Shown here: piece by piece, positions 4,058 to 50,303 of the stretch
Layout of the letters: every line of letters begins with the position of its first letter
Position numbering within the stretch: the first letter of the stretch is position 1
Assembly: GCA_024398055.1 (NCBI GenBank)
Contig: CP073749.1
Coordinates: 3,162,594 to 3,226,593 of the forward strand
DNA length: 64,000 nt
Source of the DNA: a bacterium SCSIO 12741
Lineage (GTDB): Bacteria > Bacteroidota > Bacteroidia > Flavobacteriales_G > Salibacteraceae
Direction of reading: 5' to 3'
Position numbers and translations under genes: made by a program
The notes under the pieces: generated by a model
What the model saw: the letters and a program-made list of their open reading frames with translations, nothing else
Databases searched by the model: none
Told to the model about the DNA's origin: nothing

Positions 4058-6139
4058 ATGGCTAAGAGGAATATCAAGTATTTGTGTTGGATTGGATTAG
4101 TAATTTGTACGCTATCCCTATCTGCTCAAGAAGACTGTGACCAGGATGTGAGTGATAAGGCCAAGAAACTTTTTGATAAGGCCAAGGACCGAAAACTCCC
4201 CGAACAAAAAAGAATGGCTTACCTCAGGGAAGCCCTGGAAATTGACGAAGATTACGCTGCTGCGAATATGCTTATGGGTAAGTTGGCCATGGGCCGTGCC
4301 AAGCAACGGGGTGGAGGCTATATGGCAGTGGCACCCTACTACGAAAAGGTGGTGGAGCTTTGCCCGGAATACAAAGCCAAAATCTACTACGAATTGGGGC
4401 AGATCTACTACTCCAATAAGAAGTACGACAAAGCGGTAACCTATTACGAAGGTTTTGTCAATTTTTCTTCTGAAGACGATAAGGCTTATTCCAGGGATCA
4501 TGAAGAACTGGTTGAACTCTGTCAGGAAGATCTGAAGACGGCTCGTTTTTACAAAGAAGCATACGCCAATCCCGTTCCCTTTGACCCGAAGGTAGTACGA
4601 GATATTTCTACCAATGAGGCGGACGAGTATTTACCGCTGTTGTCACCCGACAACGAGTGGTTATTCTTTACGCGTAGATGGGAGGATCACACCAAGGATA
4701 AGAATCAGATTTACCAGAGCGAATCCATTAAGCAAATCGAACGTTTTACCCGTTCAGAATATGTGAGCGATGGGAAATACAACAAGGGAGAACCGATGCC
4801 GGCGCCCTTTAATACCGATGAAAACATCAATTACGGTGGAGTAAGTATCTCCTTGAACAACCGTCATATCTACATCACCATCTGTACGCCTTACTTTAGC
4901 AAGACTCAGCAGAAAATGGTGAAAAACTGCGACATCTACCAGTCGAACTACGTGTTGGGTATGAACCCGGAGACGCATAAAGAGGAGTGGTATTGGACGG
5001 AACCCGAAAACATGGGCCCCAATATCAATACACCTGACGGCTGGGAATCGCAACCTTCGATTAGTGCCGATGGCCGACACCTGTATTTTGCCTCCTGGCG
5101 GGAAGGAAGCCAGCAGATTGACATCTATCAATCGGAACGTAAGGCGGACGGAACTTGGGGTATGGCCACGAACCTTGGTGCTCCTATTAATACAGAAGGA
5201 AACGACAAATCGCCCTTCATTCACACGGATTCTAAAACACTTTATTTCTCTTCTCAAGGACACCTCGGATTTGGTGGATACGATATCTATTACGTCCGTC
5301 AAGGCGACGATGGTAAATGGGAACAGCCCAAAAATCTGGGACATCCGATCAACACCGATGAGGATGAACACGGCTTGGTGGTAAGCACGGATGGTAAGAA
5401 GGTATACTTCGCCTCCGATCATTTAGAAAACAAACGAACTCGTCTGAATGTACTCTCCTTTGAGCTGTATAAAGAAGCCCAGCCCGATCAGGTGGTTTTG
5501 GTAAAGGGAAAGGTGGATCAAAAGTCATCGGATTCTCACCCTACGAAGATCCAGTTAAAGAACATGACCAGCCGTGATGTCAACGAATTCGAATTGGATT
5601 CTAATGATGGGTCCTTTGCAGCTGTAATGACGGTGAAGCCAGGCGACAAGGTGATCATGAAGGTGGAAGGAGAAAATGTAGCCTACAACTCCAGAATTAT
5701 TGAAACTCCGGAAGAGCAGGAAGAGGAGCTCGTTAAAGAACCAGGGGAACCTGTGGTTCAAAAAATGGATGTACCGGTTGACAAGAACAAGAAAGGAGGA
5801 ACCTATCCTCTAAAAGACCTTCATTACGAAACCAACTCCTCCGATATTTCAGAACGATCCATGGTCATTTTGGATGATTTTGCGGAATACCTCATAGAAA
5901 ACAAGCAGGTAAAAATTGCCATCCATGGTCACACTGACAACGTGGGTGCATCCTCCGATAATCTCGCTCTATCCGCAGACCGTGCCTTTTCGGTAAAAGA
6001 ATACCTGGAGGAAAAAGGAGTAACTCCCCAACGCCTCACTTTTAAGGGCTTTGGAGATACCAAACCCGTGGCTTCGAATCAAACCGAGCAAGGACGCTCT
6101 AAGAACAGAAGAACGGAGTTTGTGATCCTTGCTTTTTAG
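4058..6139 (+). CDS. TPR / PD40 repeat / OmpA C-terminal protein, PorE-like
   Basis: After a signal peptide (about residues 1-23) this 693-residue protein has a TPR-like region (about 30-170), a run of WD40-like PD40 beta-propeller repeats (about 190-470, with repeated SxDGxxLYFAS-type strands), a small beta domain (about 480-560) and an OmpA-type peptidoglycan-binding domain (about 582-693, GHTDNVG then LSADRA). This order matches PorE, the T9SS protein that links the secretion machine to peptidoglycan, and also many other Bacteroidota OmpA-family proteins. The T9SS role is therefore inference, helped by PorD and T9SS cargo elsewhere in the window. It follows the AsmA-like gene by 60 bases. 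Confidence 0.85.
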   Translation: MAKRNIKYLCWIGLVICTLSLSAQEDCDQDVSDKAKKLFDKAKDRKLPEQKRMAYLREALEIDEDYAAANMLMGKLAMGRAKQRGGGYMAVAPYYEKVVELCPEYKAKIYYELGQIYYSNKKYDKAVTYYEGFVNFSSEDDKAYSRDHEELVELCQEDLKTARFYKEAYANPVPFDPKVVRDISTNEADEYLPLLSPDNEWLFFTRRWEDHTKDKNQIYQSESIKQIERFTRSEYVSDGKYNKGEPMPAPFNTDENINYGGVSISLNNRHIYITICTPYFSKTQQKMVKNCDIYQSNYVLGMNPETHKEEWYWTEPENMGPNINTPDGWESQPSISADGRHLYFASWREGSQQIDIYQSERKADGTWGMATNLGAPINTEGNDKSPFIHTDSKTLYFSSQGHLGFGGYDIYYVRQGDDGKWEQPKNLGHPINTDEDEHGLVVSTDGKKVYFASDHLENKRTRLNVLSFELYKEAQPDQVVLVKGKVDQKSSDSHPTKIQLKNMTSRDVNEFELDSNDGSFAAVMTVKPGDKVIMKVEGENVAYNSRIIETPEEQEEELVKEPGEPVVQKMDVPVDKNKKGGTYPLKDLHYETNSSDISERSMVILDDFAEYLIENKQVKIAIHGHTDNVGASSDNLALSADRAFSVKEYLEEKGVTPQRLTFKGFGDTKPVASNQTEQGRSKNRRTEFVILAF

Positions 6140-42503: not shown

Positions 42504-43847
42504 ATGGCAGCAAGCGTCAAGATTCGAAAGGGAGTTGACATAAAGCTTAAAGGTTCGGCAGATCAGTCGATCGAAGCTACGTCCTCAACGACCTTCGCAG
42601 TCAAGCCCACCGATTTTCACGGGCTTAACCCCAAACTCGAATTAAAAGTCGGAGCCGAAGTCAAAGTAGGTACCGCGCTCTTCCACGACAAGTACAATAA
42701 CAACATGAAATTCGTTGCTCCAGTTAGCGGCGAGCTCGTTGATATTGTTCGTGGAGAAAAGCGTCGTATCCTCGAAGTACGCATTTTGGCCGACAAGGAA
42801 ATGAAATACGAAAGCTTTGCCACCTCTGGCTGGGAGTCTTTCTCTTCAGATCAATTGAAGGAAGTACTGCTACAGAGTGGAAATTGGCCAAGCATTCGTC
42901 AGCGTCCCTACGATGTGGTAGCGGATCCCGCTGATACGCCTAAGGCGATTTTCGTTTCTGCTTTCGATTCAGCTCCTATGGCACCTGACTATGGATTTAT
43001 CCTAAAAGATCGTCAGGCTGATCTTCAGGCAGGAGTAGAAGCGATGAGCAAGTTGACTTCGGGAAAAGTACACATCAGTACCCGTACAGGTGACAATGGA
43101 GTATTTGGTTCTTTGAAAGGAGCAGTGCTTCACCAGGTATCTGGTCCTCACCCAGCTGGAAACGTTGGTGTTCAAATTCACCACATCGACCCGATCAACA
43201 AAGGCGAGAAAGTATGGGTGATCAATCCTCAGGATTTGGCCGCCATCGGTAAGTTCTTAAAATCGGGACAATTCGACTCTCAAAGAGTAGTAGCTCTCAC
43301 CGGTTCCAAAGTGAATGCTCCAAAGTATCTATCGGCAACGATCGGATCTCAAGTGGAGGCCTTGGTAAGCGGTAAGATTGATAATAATGATGCTCGTATT
43401 ATTTCCGGAAACGTTTTGACCGGTGAGCGAGTTTCCATGGAAGGTTACCTCGGGTTTTACAACCACCAAATTTCAGTGATTCCAGAAGATGAGAATCCTG
43501 AGTTCTTTGGATGGATTGCCCCTGGATTTGACAAGTTCTCCCTCTCAAGAACATTCTTCTCTTGGTTGACCCCAGGAAAGACGTATGATTTGGGAACTTC
43601 TCTTCATGGTGAAGAAAGAGCATTTGTAATGTCAGGTCAATATGAAAAGGTATTCCCTTTTGACATTTACCCGGTTTACCTATTGAAAGCCATGCTGACC
43701 AAGGATATTGAAGGAATGGAAAACCTCGGAGTTTACGAAGTAGCTCCCGAAGATTTTGCGTTGTGCGAGTTTGCTTGTACATCGAAGATTGATCTTCAGG
43801 ATATCGTAAGAAGCGGGTTGGATCTGGTTAAACAAGAATGCGGATAA
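42504..43847 (+). CDS. nqrA: Na(+)-translocating NADH-quinone reductase subunit A
   Basis: The 447-residue protein starts with VKIRKGVDIKLKGSAD and carries the NqrA signature HGLNPKLELKVGAEVKVG and the later HPAGNVGVQIHHIDPI. NqrA is a cytoplasmic-side subunit that contributes to the quinone site. Length is that of the family. It opens the six-gene operon of the Na+ pump that oxidises NADH, reduces quinone and exports sodium ions. The next gene follows after 10 bases. Confidence 0.97.
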   Translation: MAASVKIRKGVDIKLKGSADQSIEATSSTTFAVKPTDFHGLNPKLELKVGAEVKVGTALFHDKYNNNMKFVAPVSGELVDIVRGEKRRILEVRILADKEMKYESFATSGWESFSSDQLKEVLLQSGNWPSIRQRPYDVVADPADTPKAIFVSAFDSAPMAPDYGFILKDRQADLQAGVEAMSKLTSGKVHISTRTGDNGVFGSLKGAVLHQVSGPHPAGNVGVQIHHIDPINKGEKVWVINPQDLAAIGKFLKSGQFDSQRVVALTGSKVNAPKYLSATIGSQVEALVSGKIDNNDARIISGNVLTGERVSMEGYLGFYNHQISVIPEDENPEFFGWIAPGFDKFSLSRTFFSWLTPGKTYDLGTSLHGEERAFVMSGQYEKVFPFDIYPVYLLKAMLTKDIEGMENLGVYEVAPEDFALCEFACTSKIDLQDIVRSGLDLVKQECG

Positions 43848-43857
43848 AAGAAGGAGA

Positions 43858-45012
43858 ATGAAACTTTTTAAAAACCTATTAGACAGTGTAAAACCTCACT
43901 TCGAAGAAGGAGGGAAGTTACATAAATACTGGCCGGTATACGACGGTTTTGAAACCTTCTTGTTCGTTCCGGGTCATGCTACCAAGAAAGGAGCACACAT
44001 TCGCGACGGTATCGACTTGAAGCGTACCATGATTATGGTTGTGCTTGCATTGGTTCCTTGTTTGCTTTTTGGAATGTACAACGTAGGCTATCAGCACTAC
44101 ATGGCAACAGGACAAGAAGGGGAATTGATGGAAATGTTCCTATACGGAGCGCTTAAAGTTCTTCCTCTTGTAATTGTATCCTACACCGTTGGTCTGGGAG
44201 TTGAATTTGGATTCTGTATCGCTAAGGGCCACGGGATCAACGAAGGATTCCTGGTTTCAGGTATGCTTATTCCATTGATTATGCCTGTTGAGGTTCCTCT
44301 TTGGATGGTTGGTTTGGCTACAGCCTTTGCCGTAGTATTCGGTAAGGAGGTATTCGGTGGTACAGGGATGAACATCCTTAACCCGGCACTCACAGCTCGT
44401 GCCTTCCTATTCTTTGCTTATCCTACTCAAATGTCAGGTAATATGGTATGGGTTCCTACTGAAGGAATGCCAACTGTAGACGGATTCACCGGTGCTACTG
44501 CACTGGGTGTTGCGGCTGAATCAGGAGGTGCTGGAATCCCATCCTTGATGGAGAGCTTTATCGGTATTATTCCCGGATCGATTGGAGAAACCTCGGTTAT
44601 TGCCATCCTTTTGGGAGCAGCCTTGTTGCTCTATACAGGAATTGCAAGTTGGAGAGTTATGTTGTCCATGTTGATCGGTGGTTATTTGATGGCCTTTACT
44701 TTCAACTTGCTGGCCTTGAACGAATACATGAAGATTGATGCGCTACACCAATTGATGATGGGTGGATTTATGTTCGGTTTGGTCTTTATGGCTACCGATC
44801 CTGTAAGTGCTGCTCAAACCAATGTTGGTAAATGGATTTACGGATTCTTCTGCGGGGTATTGGGTATCCTCATTCGCGTGGTTAACCCGGCTTATCCAGA
44901 AGGAATTATGATGGCGATTCTATTTATGAATGTGATGGCTCCAATGATTGATCACTACGTGGTTCAAGGAAACATCAACCGTCGATTAAAACGAGTTAAA
45001 GTAAAAGCATAA
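43858..45012 (+). CDS. nqrB: Na(+)-translocating NADH-quinone reductase subunit B
   Basis: This 384-residue integral membrane subunit has about 10 hydrophobic segments. The covalent FMN attachment threonine lies in DGFTGATALG (about residues 208-217), the site modified by ApbE, which is encoded at the end of the locus. NqrB forms the main Na+ channel and holds riboflavin as well. The conserved GGTGMNILNPALTARAFLFF segment is present. Gap to nqrC is 10 bases. Confidence 0.97.
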   Translation: MKLFKNLLDSVKPHFEEGGKLHKYWPVYDGFETFLFVPGHATKKGAHIRDGIDLKRTMIMVVLALVPCLLFGMYNVGYQHYMATGQEGELMEMFLYGALKVLPLVIVSYTVGLGVEFGFCIAKGHGINEGFLVSGMLIPLIMPVEVPLWMVGLATAFAVVFGKEVFGGTGMNILNPALTARAFLFFAYPTQMSGNMVWVPTEGMPTVDGFTGATALGVAAESGGAGIPSLMESFIGIIPGSIGETSVIAILLGAALLLYTGIASWRVMLSMLIGGYLMAFTFNLLALNEYMKIDALHQLMMGGFMFGLVFMATDPVSAAQTNVGKWIYGFFCGVLGILIRVVNPAYPEGIMMAILFMNVMAPMIDHYVVQGNINRRLKRVKVKA

Positions 45013-45022
45013 AGTCGGAACC

Positions 45023-45748
45023 ATGGCAATAGATAAAAACAGTAACGGCTATACTTTTGGATTCGCCATCGTGATGGTTATCGTGGTGGGATCTCTGTTA
45101 TCGCTGGCAGCGGTATCACTAAAACCTTTCCAGCAGGAAAACATCCAAAAGGAGAAAAAACAAAATATTCTTGCATCCATTAATGTGGTTACATCTCGAA
45201 GCGAAGCTGATGCTTTGTTTTCGGAGTATGTAAAGAAGCAGGTGGTGATCAATAACCAAGGCGAAGTAGTTTCGGAAGAAGATGGTTCAGCTTTTGGAAT
45301 TGATGTAAAGAAAGAATACAAAGAGTGGAAAGCAGGTGCTCGTGAAGAGTCTAAACTAAATTTCCCCTTGTTCGTCTGTAACAAAGATGGAGAGGACTAC
45401 TACGTAGTGCCAATGGTTGGTACAGGTCTTTGGGGACCCATTTGGGGGTTTGTTTCTCTAAAAGGAGATTTGAACACCATTTTCGGAGCCAATTTTGACC
45501 ACAAGACTGAGACACCCGGTTTGGGAGCTGAGATCAAGGAATCTATTTTCGAAGAGCAGTTTTCAGGAGATCAGATCTACGCCAACGGTGAAGTTGCCTT
45601 TGTGATTATGAAAGGTGGTGGCGGTAGCGACAACCCAAATGGAGTTGACGGAATTACCGGAGGAACCATTACTTCCAAAGGAGTAGAAGAAATGCTTCAA
45701 AGAACCTTTGAAGTGTACAAACCTTATTTCGAAAAAATTAAATCTTAA
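45023..45748 (+). CDS. nqrC: Na(+)-translocating NADH-quinone reductase subunit C
   Basis: The 241-residue protein has one N-terminal membrane helix (about 10-31) and a periplasmic FMN-binding domain. The covalent FMN site is the threonine in DGITGGTITSKG (about residues 213-224). The ETPGLGAEIKE motif precedes it. It passes electrons between the membrane iron site and NqrB. nqrD starts two bases after the stop. Confidence 0.96.
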   Translation: MAIDKNSNGYTFGFAIVMVIVVGSLLSLAAVSLKPFQQENIQKEKKQNILASINVVTSRSEADALFSEYVKKQVVINNQGEVVSEEDGSAFGIDVKKEYKEWKAGAREESKLNFPLFVCNKDGEDYYVVPMVGTGLWGPIWGFVSLKGDLNTIFGANFDHKTETPGLGAEIKESIFEEQFSGDQIYANGEVAFVIMKGGGGSDNPNGVDGITGGTITSKGVEEMLQRTFEVYKPYFEKIKS

Positions 45749-45750
45749 TC

Positions 45751-46434
45751 ATGGCCGATACAGCAGTAGTTGAGAAAAAAGCAAAAGAGCCTCTGTTCTC
45801 CAAGAAGAACAGGCAATTGATGGTCGATCCATTGGATGACCAAAACCCGATTACGGTTCAGGTACTTGGAATCTGTTCGGCCCTGGCAATTACAACCCAA
45901 GCCATGAATGCGGTGGTGATGACCATTTCCGTAATGTTCGTACTGATGGCTGGTAACGTGATTGTATCGCTAATGAGAAACGGAATTCCAGATCGTATCC
46001 GGATTATCGTTCAGTTGGTGGTGGTAGCTTCTCTGGTAATTTTGGTTGACCAGGTGCTTAAAGCCTTTATGTATGATGTAAGTAAGCAGTTGTCGGTATT
46101 CGTTGGTTTGATTATTACCAACTGTATTATCATGGGACGATTGGAAGCCTTTGCCTTGGGTAACAAGCCTTGGCCATCTCTATTGGATGGTTTTGGAAAC
46201 GCCGTAGGTTATGGTGCTATTTTGATCATTGTTGGTGTTTTCCGTGAGATCCTTGGATCAGGAAAGCTTTTCGGAATTGCCTTGTTGGGTGATGCCGCTG
46301 AAAAGACTGGTTTGTACGGCATGGGTTACATGAACAACAACCTGGTTATTCTGCCTCCAATGGCATTGATCTTTGTAGGAATTATTATCTGGATTCAACG
46401 TGCCAGAAACAAATCATTGATTGAAGCACACTAA
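45751..46434 (+). CDS. nqrD: Na(+)-translocating NADH-quinone reductase subunit D
   Basis: This 227-residue hydrophobic subunit has six predicted helices. It carries the NqrD/RnfE family segments LGICSALAITTQAMNAVVM and ITNCIIMGRLEAFA; the cysteines in these half-helices help coordinate the iron centre shared with NqrE. The N-terminus is longer than in proteobacterial forms, with an additional basic cytoplasmic stretch. It is in the middle of the nqr operon. Confidence 0.96.
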   Translation: MADTAVVEKKAKEPLFSKKNRQLMVDPLDDQNPITVQVLGICSALAITTQAMNAVVMTISVMFVLMAGNVIVSLMRNGIPDRIRIIVQLVVVASLVILVDQVLKAFMYDVSKQLSVFVGLIITNCIIMGRLEAFALGNKPWPSLLDGFGNAVGYGAILIIVGVFREILGSGKLFGIALLGDAAEKTGLYGMGYMNNNLVILPPMALIFVGIIIWIQRARNKSLIEAH

Positions 46435-46450
46435 AAAGAAGTAAAAAGTC

Positions 46451-47062
46451 ATGCAAGAGCTTATTAACATATTTGTCAAGGGGATCTTCATTGAGAACAT
46501 GATCTTCGCTTACTTTTTGGGGATGTGTTCCTATCTGGCCGTTTCCAAAACAGTAAAAACCGGTGTAGGTCTTGGAGCCGCTGTAATCTTCGTATTGGGG
46601 ATTACCGTTCCAATTAACTACCTACTCGAAAACTACGTATTGAAAGAAGGAGCTTTGGCTTGGGCTGGTTTGCCTGAGATGGACCTGAGTTTCCTTAGCT
46701 TTATTATGTTCATCGCTGTAATTGCATCCATGGTGCAGTTGGTAGAGATGATCGTAGAAAAATTTGCTCCCGCTCTTTATGGGGCTTTGGGTATTTTCCT
46801 TCCACTTATTGCGGTAAACTGCTCCATCCTGGGTGGTGCCTTGTTTATGCAGGAAAGACAATACGCTACCATTGCTGAGGCCACTTCTTTTGGCTTGGGT
46901 TCTGGAGTGGGATGGTTCCTGGCTATTGTGGCCATTGCAGCCATTCGTGAGAAAATTCGTTACTCCAACGTTCCGGCTCCATTGCGCGGATTGGGTATCA
47001 CTTTTATCATTACCGGACTCATGGGTATCGCCTTTATGAGTTTTATGGGAATTGAATTGTAA
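46451..47062 (+). CDS. nqrE: Na(+)-translocating NADH-quinone reductase subunit E
   Basis: The 203-residue membrane subunit has six helices arranged antiparallel to NqrD. Family segments with the iron-ligand cysteines are visible: [15 protein letters not shown] and [16 protein letters not shown]. With NqrD it holds the Cys4 iron centre whose assembly needs the maturation factor NqrM. It lies 16 bases after nqrD and 22 bases before nqrF. Confidence 0.97.
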
Positions 47063-47084
47063 AATCAGAAAGAAACAGTAAGAC

Positions 47085-48383
47085 ATGGAAATTGGAATTA
47101 CACTTTTAGCTGCGATTAGCGCCTTTCTGGTAGTTATTTTGCTGCTGGTATTTTTGCTGCTATTTGCAAAGGCAAAACTTTCCCCATCCGGTAAGGTGAA
47201 GTTGACCATCAACGGAGAAAAAGAAATTGAAGTAGATGCTGGTGGAACCGTATTGGGTACCCTGGGTAACGCTAAGATTTTCCTTCCTTCTGCCTGTGGT
47301 GGTGGTGGTACTTGTGTTCAATGTAAGTGCCAGGTGACCAAAGGTGGTGGAAGTATGCTTCCTACAGAGGAACCACACTTTTCTCGTAAAGAAGCTGCTG
47401 AAGGCTGGCGTTTAGGTTGTCAGGTTAAGGTAAAAGAAGACATGGATATCACCGTACCTGAGGAGGTATTCGGTATCAAGAAGTGGGAAGCTACTGTAGT
47501 ATCTAACTACAACGTGGCCTCTTTTATTAAAGAATTTATCGTTGAGATTCCTGAGGATATGGATTACAAGGCGGGTGGTTACATCCAGATTGAAATCCCT
47601 CAAACAACGGTTAACTACAAAGACATTGATATCACAGCTCACCCAGAAGAGCATCCTGGCGATCCGGATAAGTTCAAAATGGAGTGGGACAAATTTAACC
47701 TATGGCCTTTGCGCATGGTTAATGATGATGATGTTGAGCGTGCTTACTCTATGGCCAGTTACCCTGCAGAGGGTCGTCGTATCATGTTGAATGTACGTAT
47801 TGCGACTCCACCATGGGATCGTGAGAAGAACGGCTGGATGGATGTAAATCCTGGAATTGCCTCATCTTACATTTTCTCCAGAAAAATAGGAGACAAGGTA
47901 ACCGTATCAGGACCTTATGGAGAGTTCTTCATTAAGGAAACTGATGCTGAGATGTTGTACATCGGTGGTGGTGCTGGTATGGCTCCAATGAGATCTCACT
48001 TGTACCATCTGTTTAGAACCATCAAAACTGGTCGTAAGGTGACTTACTGGTACGGTGGTCGTTCTAAGCGTGAGTTGTTCTACATCGAGCACTTCCGTGC
48101 ATTAGAAAAAGATTTCCCGAACTTTAAATTCTACATGGTTCTTTCCGAGCCTTTAGAAGAAGATAACTGGAAGGAAATGGCCGATACCGACAGCCAGGGA
48201 GATGGCTTTGTGGGTTTCGTTCACCAGGCAGTGATTGACCAGTACTTGGCCAAGCACGATGCTCCAGAAGATATTGAGTTCTATTTCTGTGGTCCACCTA
48301 TGATGAACCAGGCTGTACTGAAGATGTGCGACGACTGGGGAGTGCCACCAGAAAATGTATCCTTCGACGACTTCGGAGGTTAA
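47085..48383 (+). CDS. nqrF: Na(+)-translocating NADH-quinone reductase subunit F
   Basis: The 432-residue electron-input subunit has one N-terminal helix (about 5-27), a [2Fe-2S] ferredoxin domain with [16 protein letters not shown] and a later GCQV (about 65-110), an FAD-binding domain (RAYSMASYP) and an NADH-binding domain ([25 protein letters not shown]). It takes hydride from NADH and passes electrons one at a time to the [2Fe-2S] centre. It is the last structural gene before the operon's terminator. Confidence 0.97.
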
Positions 48384-48427: not shown

Positions 48428-48450
48428 GCCATTTTAATTAGATCGTGAGC

Positions 48451-49527
48451 ATGAAAAATTGGGCCATTATATTGCTGGGAGCAATAACCCTCCAATCTTG
48501 CCAACCGAAAGAAGAGAATAACTCCTGGACTATTCGAGGAGAAGCTCAGGGTACCACCTACCAGATAACGGGATGGGAAAAATCGGAGGTTCAAAAAGAG
48601 GAAATAGATTCGCTGTTATTGGCTTTGGATCAATCCTTATCCACTTGGGTGAAAGGCTCCATTATTGATGATTTTAACTCTGGTGAGGAGGGAGCTCAAG
48701 TAGACCAACATTTTGCCACGAATCTTTGGGCTTCACATGAAGTATTTCAAAGAACCGACGGTGCTTTTAATCCCCTAATTAAGCCCTTACTGAGCTATTG
48801 GGGCTTTGGGCCAGATGCGCGCAAACCTGAGGAAGTGGATTCGGCAAAAGTGGATTCTCTCATGATGCTCATGGATTGGAATCAGCTGTGGGTTATGCAT
48901 CAGGGAGATTCGCTTCCATTTACTGGCATTAAAAGATTTGAGAGCCTAAAGCTCCCCATAAACCTTCAAAAAGGTAATCCTGCTATCCAATTGGATTTTA
49001 ATGCTATTGCTCAAGGTTATTCCGTTGACGTAATCGCCGATTATTTGGATGTGGCGGGATTGAATCACTACCTGGTAGAATTAGGAGGGGAAATGATCGT
49101 AAAAGGCCATAAAGAAGGTGGAAAAGACTGGGTGGTTGGTATTGATAAACCCGTAGAAGGAAATCAACCCGGAAATAGAAAGTTGATGGCGACCATTGCT
49201 TTGAAGGATAAAGCCATTGCGACTTCAGGAAATTACCGAAAGTCAGTGGAAATTGATGGAGTAAAGTATCACCACACCTTTGATCCTCATACCGGATTTC
49301 CTGCTCGTCATCAGCTACTCAGTGCGACCGTTATTTCGGAAAGTTGCCAATTGGCTGATGCCTATGCAACTGCTTTTATGGTAATGGGCTATCCCAAAGC
49401 AAAAGCGCTTTTGGGTCAAGATGAATGGCACCTTGAGGCGATGTTGGTGTATAGCGATTCAACAGGAGAAATGAAGACTTACCTGACACAAGGTCTGGAG
49501 AACCAAATAAAATACCTGGAAGAGTAA
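48451..49527 (+). CDS. apbE: FAD:protein FMN transferase ApbE
   Basis: The 358-residue lipoprotein (lipobox TLQSCQP, Cys about residue 17) has the ApbE domain: GEAQGTTYQIT near the start, DFNAIAQGYSVDVIADYL, LVELGGEMIVKG and the Mg-binding HHTFDPHTGFPA. ApbE transfers FMN from FAD to threonines in the D/SGATx motif, here those of NqrB and NqrC. ATG at 48451 is preferred to the GTG at 48445. It is separated from nqrF by a terminator, yet its place next to nqr matches its role in maturing the pump. Confidence 0.95.
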   Translation: MKNWAIILLGAITLQSCQPKEENNSWTIRGEAQGTTYQITGWEKSEVQKEEIDSLLLALDQSLSTWVKGSIIDDFNSGEEGAQVDQHFATNLWASHEVFQRTDGAFNPLIKPLLSYWGFGPDARKPEEVDSAKVDSLMMLMDWNQLWVMHQGDSLPFTGIKRFESLKLPINLQKGNPAIQLDFNAIAQGYSVDVIADYLDVAGLNHYLVELGGEMIVKGHKEGGKDWVVGIDKPVEGNQPGNRKLMATIALKDKAIATSGNYRKSVEIDGVKYHHTFDPHTGFPARHQLLSATVISESCQLADAYATAFMVMGYPKAKALLGQDEWHLEAMLVYSDSTGEMKTYLTQGLENQIKYLEE

Positions 49528-49533
49528 AAGTGC

Positions 49534-49734
49534 CTAAGCGGCCTCAGATTCTTTCTTGCATTGCTCATCAGGAAGAGCTCCACAGAAGCTGCAAGGTTTT
49601 CCTTCTTCGTTAAGAAAAGGACTGTTGCTGGCACAAGTTCCTTCGAACTTTCCATCCCGCTTAACCAAAATCTTAATGGCGATCCCTGCAAATGCCAGGG
49701 CTAACATGCCAATCGAAACCAATACCAATTTCAT
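49534..49734 (-). CDS. NqrM-like four-cysteine membrane protein
   Basis: The 66-residue product has one N-terminal membrane helix (about 2-22), a basic turn (KRDGKF) and four cysteines spaced C-x13-C-x2-C-x7-C (GTCAS ... PCSFCGALPDEQC). This arrangement closely resembles NqrM (DUF539), which delivers iron for the Cys4 centre of NqrD/NqrE. Flavobacterial homologues tend to be labelled only 'membrane or secreted protein'. It is convergent with apbE, six bases apart. ATG at 49734 is used, as a frame starting at 49749 adds five residues only. The NqrM role is inference from cysteine pattern and position. Confidence 0.75.
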   Translation of the reverse strand: MKLVLVSIGMLALAFAGIAIKILVKRDGKFEGTCASNSPFLNEEGKPCSFCGALPDEQCKKESEAA

Positions 49735-49849
49735 GGGGCAAAAATACAACAGAGTAGTCTTATATAAGGTGACTTTGGTCTCATTGTTGAATAGGGGAGG
49801 AAAGATTGAAAAAAAATGCCCAAAAATTTTTGACGTTTAAATTTATTTC

Positions 49850-50051: not shown

Positions 50052-50303
50052 ATGGCAAATCTTAAATCTGCATTAAAGCGAGTTCGTCAAATTAAGACCA
50101 GAAGACTACGTAACCGTTACGTACACAAGTCCACTCGTAATGCTATCCGCGACTTGAGAAGTGAGACGGATAAGAAAGCAGCTCAGGAAAGCCTACCTAA
50201 AGTGGTGAGCATGATTGATAAGTTGGCTAAGCGCAACATCATTCATAAAAACAAAGCCGCCAACTTGAAGTCTAAATTGACTCGTAAGGTAGCCGCTCTA
50301 TAG
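50052..50303 (+). CDS. rpsT: 30S ribosomal protein S20
   Basis: The 83-residue basic protein begins [21 protein letters not shown] and ends with [19 protein letters not shown], as in S20. S20 binds 16S rRNA early in 30S assembly. It follows tRNA-Glu by 24 bases and shares its promoters. A hairpin terminator lies directly downstream. Confidence 0.96.

Follow-up and report, generated by a model that had tools for sequence, protein, structure and literature searches.

NqrM is a named cluster-maturation factor described in proteobacteria. Kostyrko et al. 2016 reportedly found it to be required for an active NQR in Vibrio and Klebsiella, with its first Cys being essential, and in Vibrio NqrM this residue is said to be the sole essential Cys. 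In the literature on NqrM/DUF539 and Bacteroidota NQR, we found no Bacteroidota NqrM named, and the primary NqrM papers could mention one. In the review PMC12174285, an intramembranous [2Fe-2S] cluster is placed in the NQR membrane core, its insertion is stated to seem to need NqrM in V. cholerae, and NQR is thought to originate in Bacteroidota. Another system with some likeness is RseC, or the N-terminal part of RnfF, a Cys-rich membrane protein (CX2CX5C) whose working partners are ApbE and a related redox pump, and its three Cys can form an Fe-S cluster, according to PMC11729352. The present study concerns a small gene, termed X here, in a 64,000-nucleotide stretch of Bacteroidota DNA (the window). 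Judging from sequence comparisons, X is quite probably the NqrM of Bacteroidota, a maturation factor for NQR that is remotely homologous to the known NqrMs and falls outside the Pfam family PF04400.

The window carries a complete nqrABCDEF operon (42504-48383), which was confirmed with NCBIfam equivalog models, together with apbE, which was confirmed with Pfam (Table 1). X is placed after this operon, near both nqr and apbE, and stands tail to tail with the latter: the last base of the apbE stop is 49527, the X stop begins at 49534, and 6 bp lie between them. This arrangement agrees with the earlier note on this DNA, which had placed the gene convergent to apbE at the end of the nqr locus. On the other side of X, a divergently oriented ORF at 50052-50303 was recognised by eye as ribosomal protein S20. 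The residues C42 and C125 of NqrD, kept in 47/47 aligned rows, and C26 and C124 of NqrE, kept in 46/46, are those that we take to be the ligands of the intramembrane cluster.

Table 1. Coordinates of X, its upstream element and the neighbouring NQR-associated genes in the window.
Feature	Positions	Strand	Evidence or remark
nqrA	42504..43847	+	NF003761 / TIGR01936
nqrB	43858..45012	+	NF003756 / TIGR01937
nqrC	45023..45748	+	TIGR01938
nqrD	45751..46434	+	TIGR01939; C42 and C125, two presumed cluster ligands
nqrE	46451..47062	+	TIGR01940; C26 and C124, other two presumed ligands
nqrF	47085..48383	+	TIGR01941, E 1.1e-173
apbE, FAD:protein FMN transferase, convergent partner of X	48445..49527	+	PF02424, E 8.8e-74
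X, proposed Bacteroidota NqrM counterpart (66-aa, one-helix, four-Cys)	49534..49734	-	ORF, family profiles, co-occurrence
TATTTTTG, resembles Bacteroidota -7 promoter element	49739..49746	-	4 nt before X ATG

The X reading frame begins with an ATG at 49734, ends with a TAG stop on the minus strand, and encodes 66 aa (MKLVLVSIGMLALAFAGIAIKILVKRDGKFEGTCASNSPFLNEEGKPCSFCGALPDEQCKKESEAA). Its Cys residues 34, 48, 51 and 59 form the motif C-x13-C-x2-C-x7-C. The hydropathy peak of 2.33 at residues 4-22 points to one membrane helix, and the AlphaFold2 model of the monomer (34 sequences) shows a single helix at residues 2-25 followed by a low-confidence tail, with mean pLDDT values of 93 (residues 1-10), 89 (11-20), 70 (21-30) and 51-63 beyond. 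The ORF, hydropathy and AlphaFold2 data are thus in line with the previous description of a 66-residue protein with one membrane helix and this Cys motif. X exceeded no Pfam or NCBIfam cut-off, that of PF04400 (NqrM/DUF539) among them, and PDB profile searches gave weak matches only (best E 0.0047 and 0.13), the chains hit being zinc proteins, rubredoxins and others of no relation.

A scan of GTDB contigs found at least 501 X relatives among the candidate stretches; the best 80 were kept, and these are Bacteroidota by title, save one titled only "bacterium". The alignment of the window protein with 33 of the best 80 (34 rows) has 20 invariant columns, namely the four Cys, present in 34/34 rows, and 16 others; the single helix is predicted for the window protein. 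The Cys spacing is 13-2-7 in 28 rows; of the remaining six, four have 13-2-8 and two have 13-2-9. Further, more divergent members are present in other families. The plasmid collection gave no match when searched with X, and three records matched when it was searched with the Bacteroidales form of X, which is described below.

Upstream of X lies a TAnnTTTG-type site, which we take to be the element known by the name of Bacteroidota -7 promoter element. Such a site was found at <=60 nt from the start in 112/138 distinct X relatives, and mononucleotide shuffles give 5.8. Its distance from the start is 14-20 nt in 78/138 relatives and 4 nt in 20 (the window and 19 others), and the 4-nt spacing to the ATG suggests a possible leaderless X transcript. 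The relatives, the invariant columns and the upstream TAnnTTTG confirm that the X ORF is more than chance, and X looks like a real gene with a promoter of its own.

To examine the relationship between X and NQR, 392 evenly sampled genomes from the phylum of the window were searched, with nqrF scored by TIGR01941. The seed profile A1 matched 54 genomes and nqrF was present in 72, all 54 falling within the 72 (hypergeometric P 4e-51, relatedness of genomes not corrected for). The broader profiles A2 and A5 include sequences from some of the genomes on which they were run; A2 added G230, G238 and G337 from the 18 other nqrF-positive genomes, giving 57 X carriers, all nqrF-positive, and A5 at E<=0.01 matched 61 genomes, namely the 57, a remnant in G373 and three matches at E 0.005-0.01. 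These last three (G091, G320 and G354) are nqrF-negative, one of them has an internal stop, and they are tentatively taken for chance matches. Among the 320 phylum genomes without nqrF, none had a recognisable intact X.

A sample of the window's order gave a similar picture, with X in 28/29 genomes and nqrF in 27/29. The one X carrier without nqrF is G394, a 360-contig assembly; G408 lacks both, and the X of G392 is a fragment at a contig start. In G400, two copies each of X and nqrF form two adjacent pairs, possibly an assembly duplicate. The earlier note had named homologues in many genomes without nqr as a finding that would weaken its proposal; no such pattern emerged, as nqrF accompanied X in 57/57 carriers of an intact copy in the phylum and in 27/28 carriers in the order. 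Since its relatives in the sampled genomes occur almost only with the pump, X looks like a distant cousin of NqrM.

These distributions also bear on the idea that X is a general membrane iron or zinc protein, like the FeoB-associated types, whose frequency among NQR carriers is a coincidence. Pfam models of zinc-ribbon and FeoB-associated proteins do give weak hits below threshold, and the FeoB-associated Cys-rich membrane protein (PF12669) is likewise small, Cys-rich and, by name, a membrane protein, with sub-threshold NqrM-like matches far below the cut-off. However, no intact copy was recognised in the 320 nqrF-negative genomes, and part of the loci show linkage to apbE and nqr, so that we consider this explanation highly improbable.

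Fifteen nqrF-positive genomes lack X: 12 of family f18, G264 and two of family f39. In the f39 genomes G371 and G167 (loci L169 and L170), the match spans NqrF positions 127-403 within a 779-aa frame and no nqrA-E was found in the surrounding 15-19 kb; these frames, fusions with an NqrF-like reductase part, pass the nqrF cut-off, yet are probably not NQR. In G264 (L168 / L219), nqrA-F are present, the genome gave no X, CCGGG (see below) or NqrM match, and tblastn with the window's ApbE gave no hit near nqr; sequence may be missing, or yet another type of factor may be used. Variation was also seen within genus g6, where three genomes have X and nqrF, six have neither, and one more shows nothing beyond a match at E 0.009. 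In one of its members, G154 (L129), the gap between X and nqrF is 1.1 kb and the nqrF outscores those of other f5 genomes; here the nqr locus and X may have been acquired together by transfer.

All 12 nqrF-positive genomes of f18 carry a different one-helix, Cys-rich protein with a CCGGGxC motif downstream of nqr and on the same strand (L156-L167; example L160 10672-10890). Its gene lies <=250 bp from apbE in 11/12 of these genomes, and L166 gave no tblastn apbE hit. A profile built from these 12 matches the same 12/392 genomes and no others; as the type was picked for its position by nqr-apbE, its presence in the 12 is uninformative, and the test lies in the remaining 380 genomes, where it is absent. 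No Pfam or NCBIfam model matched it over cut-off. The CCGGG type resembles X in its hydrophobic stretch, basic stretch, Cys tail, apbE neighbourhood and occurrence with NQR, whereas it differs in having a CCGGG-x-C tail, mostly with a later C, and in lying on the same strand as nqr. The similarity between the two tails is not significant, being reached by 6/100 shuffles.

Concerning the loss of NQR, G373 (L218, about 6009-6110) contains an X remnant with an in-frame stop (A5 E 9.6e-10); this genome has no nqrF at E<=1e-60 and has rnfC. The remnant is flanked by aminoacyl-histidine dipeptidase and OmpH-like genes, identified by eye, and intact X in Parabacteroides distasonis and Bacteroides finegoldii has the same annotated neighbours (dipeptidase and OmpH). 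This is what decay after NQR loss would look like. The possibility that X is an RNF factor was addressed with 80 hand-chosen genomes out of the 320 nqrF-negative ones, of which 11 had an rnfC score above the cut-off and 19 a match at E<=1e-50. X had no match in 10 of these 11 RNF-only genomes and the eleventh is G373, with only a broken copy, so this role was rejected. RseC/RnfF has two membrane helices, an N-terminal Cys domain and serves RNF/RSX, whereas X has a single helix and carries its Cys in a tail at the C-terminus; X was therefore set apart from RseC/RnfF by description, on helix number, the end bearing the Cys and RNF co-occurrence.

The linkage of X was evaluated at 123 loci, comprising the best 80 matches and 43 hand-chosen ones, in which the same organism possibly occurs twice. 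With an ApbE profile, apbE was found at 28 loci (27 within 3 kb), and at 95/123 loci apbE was not found in the examined stretch; nqrF was present at 18 loci; these counts supersede an earlier tblastn with the window's ApbE (ApbE at 21/80 loci, nqrC-F at 12/80). In the phylum sample, X lies within 5 kb of nqrF in 15/54 genomes, and 14 of the 15 are convergent. In Bacteroides finegoldii, nqr is on a different record of the strain, and nothing but the OmpH gene stands between apbE and the X-type gene; in Parabacteroides, apbE is absent from the 4 kb examined around X, and at most Flavobacteriaceae-titled loci X is apart from both apbE and nqr.

This frequent separation from the operon, together with the promoter-like element of its own, fits a factor made separately and argues against X being a permanent small accessory subunit that stabilises NqrD/NqrE in the Bacteroidota NQR. 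The near-strict co-occurrence with NQR and the well-kept helix fit such a subunit equally. The X profiles match no chain of the NQR entries in the PDB, which also speaks against it; this point is weak since the PDB has one distinct NQR NqrE (7xk3 and others) near that of the window, and the Bacteroidota NQR may not be covered there. Taken with these points, a role as a permanent subunit seems quite improbable.

The maturation-factor reading depends further on homology between X and NqrM. The DUF539 check proposed by the earlier note failed with the Pfam model itself: PF04400 matched 0/6 X proteins (the window's and five diverse members; 22-bit cut-off), and three NqrMs used as hmmscan positive controls scored 78.6, 26.1 and 24.0 bits. 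In a whole-genome search run without a positive control, it was over cut-off in 0/72 nqrF-positive phylum genomes, with three sub-threshold. As the model does not match, PF04400 was rejected as a family label for X. DUF539-like similarity did appear with the profile A6, built from 12 proteobacterial NqrMs in plasmid-collection records, nine of which are annotated NqrM and three of which (Marinibacterium, Proteus and Aeromonas) were taken by tblastn similarity; with this profile, X ranked ahead of unrelated ORFs.

The ranking covered 27,698 stop-to-stop ORFs of >=40 residues from all loci, a set that includes some loci fetched for weak profile matches, which works against the test, and that holds some genes twice (157 X ORFs, 138 distinct). 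A6 ranked 13 NqrM ORFs first and then 21 X and 4 CCGGG ORFs, all ahead of the best-placed unrelated ORF, which had E 0.13. With the limit set at E<=10, it recovered 98/157 X and 22/24 CCGGG ORFs versus 15 unrelated ones. In the reverse direction, 12 NqrM and 2 CCGGG ORFs stood ahead of the first unrelated ORF with A2, and 1 NqrM and 2 CCGGG ORFs with the narrow A1.

Profile-profile comparison by hhalign aligned the broad A2 with A6 at a score of 50.1 (96%, E 1.3e-9), a score reached in 0/100 shuffles of helix and tail columns and in 2/100 tail-only shuffles. The narrow A1 gave 34.1 against A6 (89%), which tail-only shuffles reach in 36/100, and the CCGGG profile gave 40.6 (94%), which they reach in 15/100; with only five NqrMs, the values were 95% for the broad alignment and 64% for the narrow one. 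The Cys tails of X and NqrM compared alone showed no significant similarity by hhalign. As the tails are not significant and tail shuffles reach the scores, the homology between X and NqrM rests mainly on the helix. As a control for generic helix similarity, 61 hydrophobic segments, each 30 columns wide and overlapping one another, were taken from alignments of NqrB-F: the helix-only score was 31.8 for X-NqrM against a control maximum of 15.5, and 26.9 for CCGGG-NqrM against a control maximum of 16.6.

These data also bear on whether X and the CCGGG types are unrelated to NqrM and have converged on one helix plus Cys in the same slot. The differing Cys spacings of X and NqrM, the non-significant tail-only similarity and the silence of PF04400 would all fit convergence. 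However, both helix scores lie above all 61 overlapping controls, and the ranking over 27,698 ORFs and the G-[ST]-C shared by X and NqrM at the first Cys point the other way, which leaves convergence rather unlikely. Since PF04400 is silent but the NqrM profile, hhalign and the helix control are positive, X is taken to be a remote homologue and not a PF04400 member. Of the earlier identification as NqrM, the kinship therefore stands, whereas membership of that Pfam family does not.

The 12 NqrMs resemble X in several further respects: complete proteins among those fetched are 54-82 aa long, with one N-terminal hydrophobic stretch and a Cys-rich tail, the first Cys lies in G-S-C, and the gene follows nqrF or apbE. 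They differ in Cys spacing, which is 11-2-15 in 6, 11-1-3 in 5 and 4-3-2 in 1 as against 13-2-7/8/9 in X, and in orientation, nqrM lying on the same strand as its neighbours whereas X, when near apbE, is usually convergent to it. A further difference is that one X branch has only one or two tail Cys. X is best placed as the Bacteroidota branch of a wider NqrM superfamily, one that appears to diverge fast. We infer the function of X from co-occurrence, linkage and remote homology; counted against the NqrM reading are the PF04400 silence, the helix-based homology, the 95/123 loci without apbE, the Cys-poor branch, G264 and G394.

As an NqrM counterpart, X would be anchored by its single N-terminal helix, and its Cys tail would be cytoplasmic by the positive-inside rule, given the basic residues right after the helix. 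The helix, which differs least among the NqrM-like types, would most likely contact and recognise the nascent NqrD/NqrE pair, and the Cys tail would deliver or hold iron while the cluster is assembled in the membrane between these two subunits. Recognition would thus be the task of the helix, with the tail handling iron in most lineages. As the NqrD/NqrE Cys are invariant, the presumed target site is constant while the tail of the factor varies. A Bacteroidota counterpart of NqrM would make the assembly of this cluster testable in that phylum.

The Cys-poor branch is found in Bacteroidales (Parabacteroides, Bacteroides, Phocaeicola, G230, G238, G337 and G340) and has FPN[TG]H where other X have xG[TS]C, the His standing at the position aligned with the first Cys of NqrM. 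Among its seven aligned rows, the tail has one Cys in six and two adjacent Cys in G337, and the branch thus lacks the four Cys of the NqrM superfamily. The seed profile A1, which contains no sequences of this branch, still matched G340 at E 4.5e-6. Such a tail, with one or two Cys plus a His, appears to strain a strict four-Cys iron-carrier model, and this natural variant offers a direct test of the need for four Cys.

The tails differ by lineage: GTC...C-x2-C...C, CCGGG-x-C, GSCGG...C-x1-2-C and, in Bacteroidales, a His together with one or two Cys. It is conceivable, and we propose it only tentatively, that NqrM is one branch of a superfamily with a membrane helix core and lineage-specific tails, in which helix-mediated NqrD/NqrE assembly is essential and the metal secondary; if this were true, the iron-delivery model would need revision. 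The X member of G296 (L117 8910-9176) has the tail C-x13-C-x-C-x4-C, a spacing that approaches the gammaproteobacterial NqrM pattern and stands between it and that of X.
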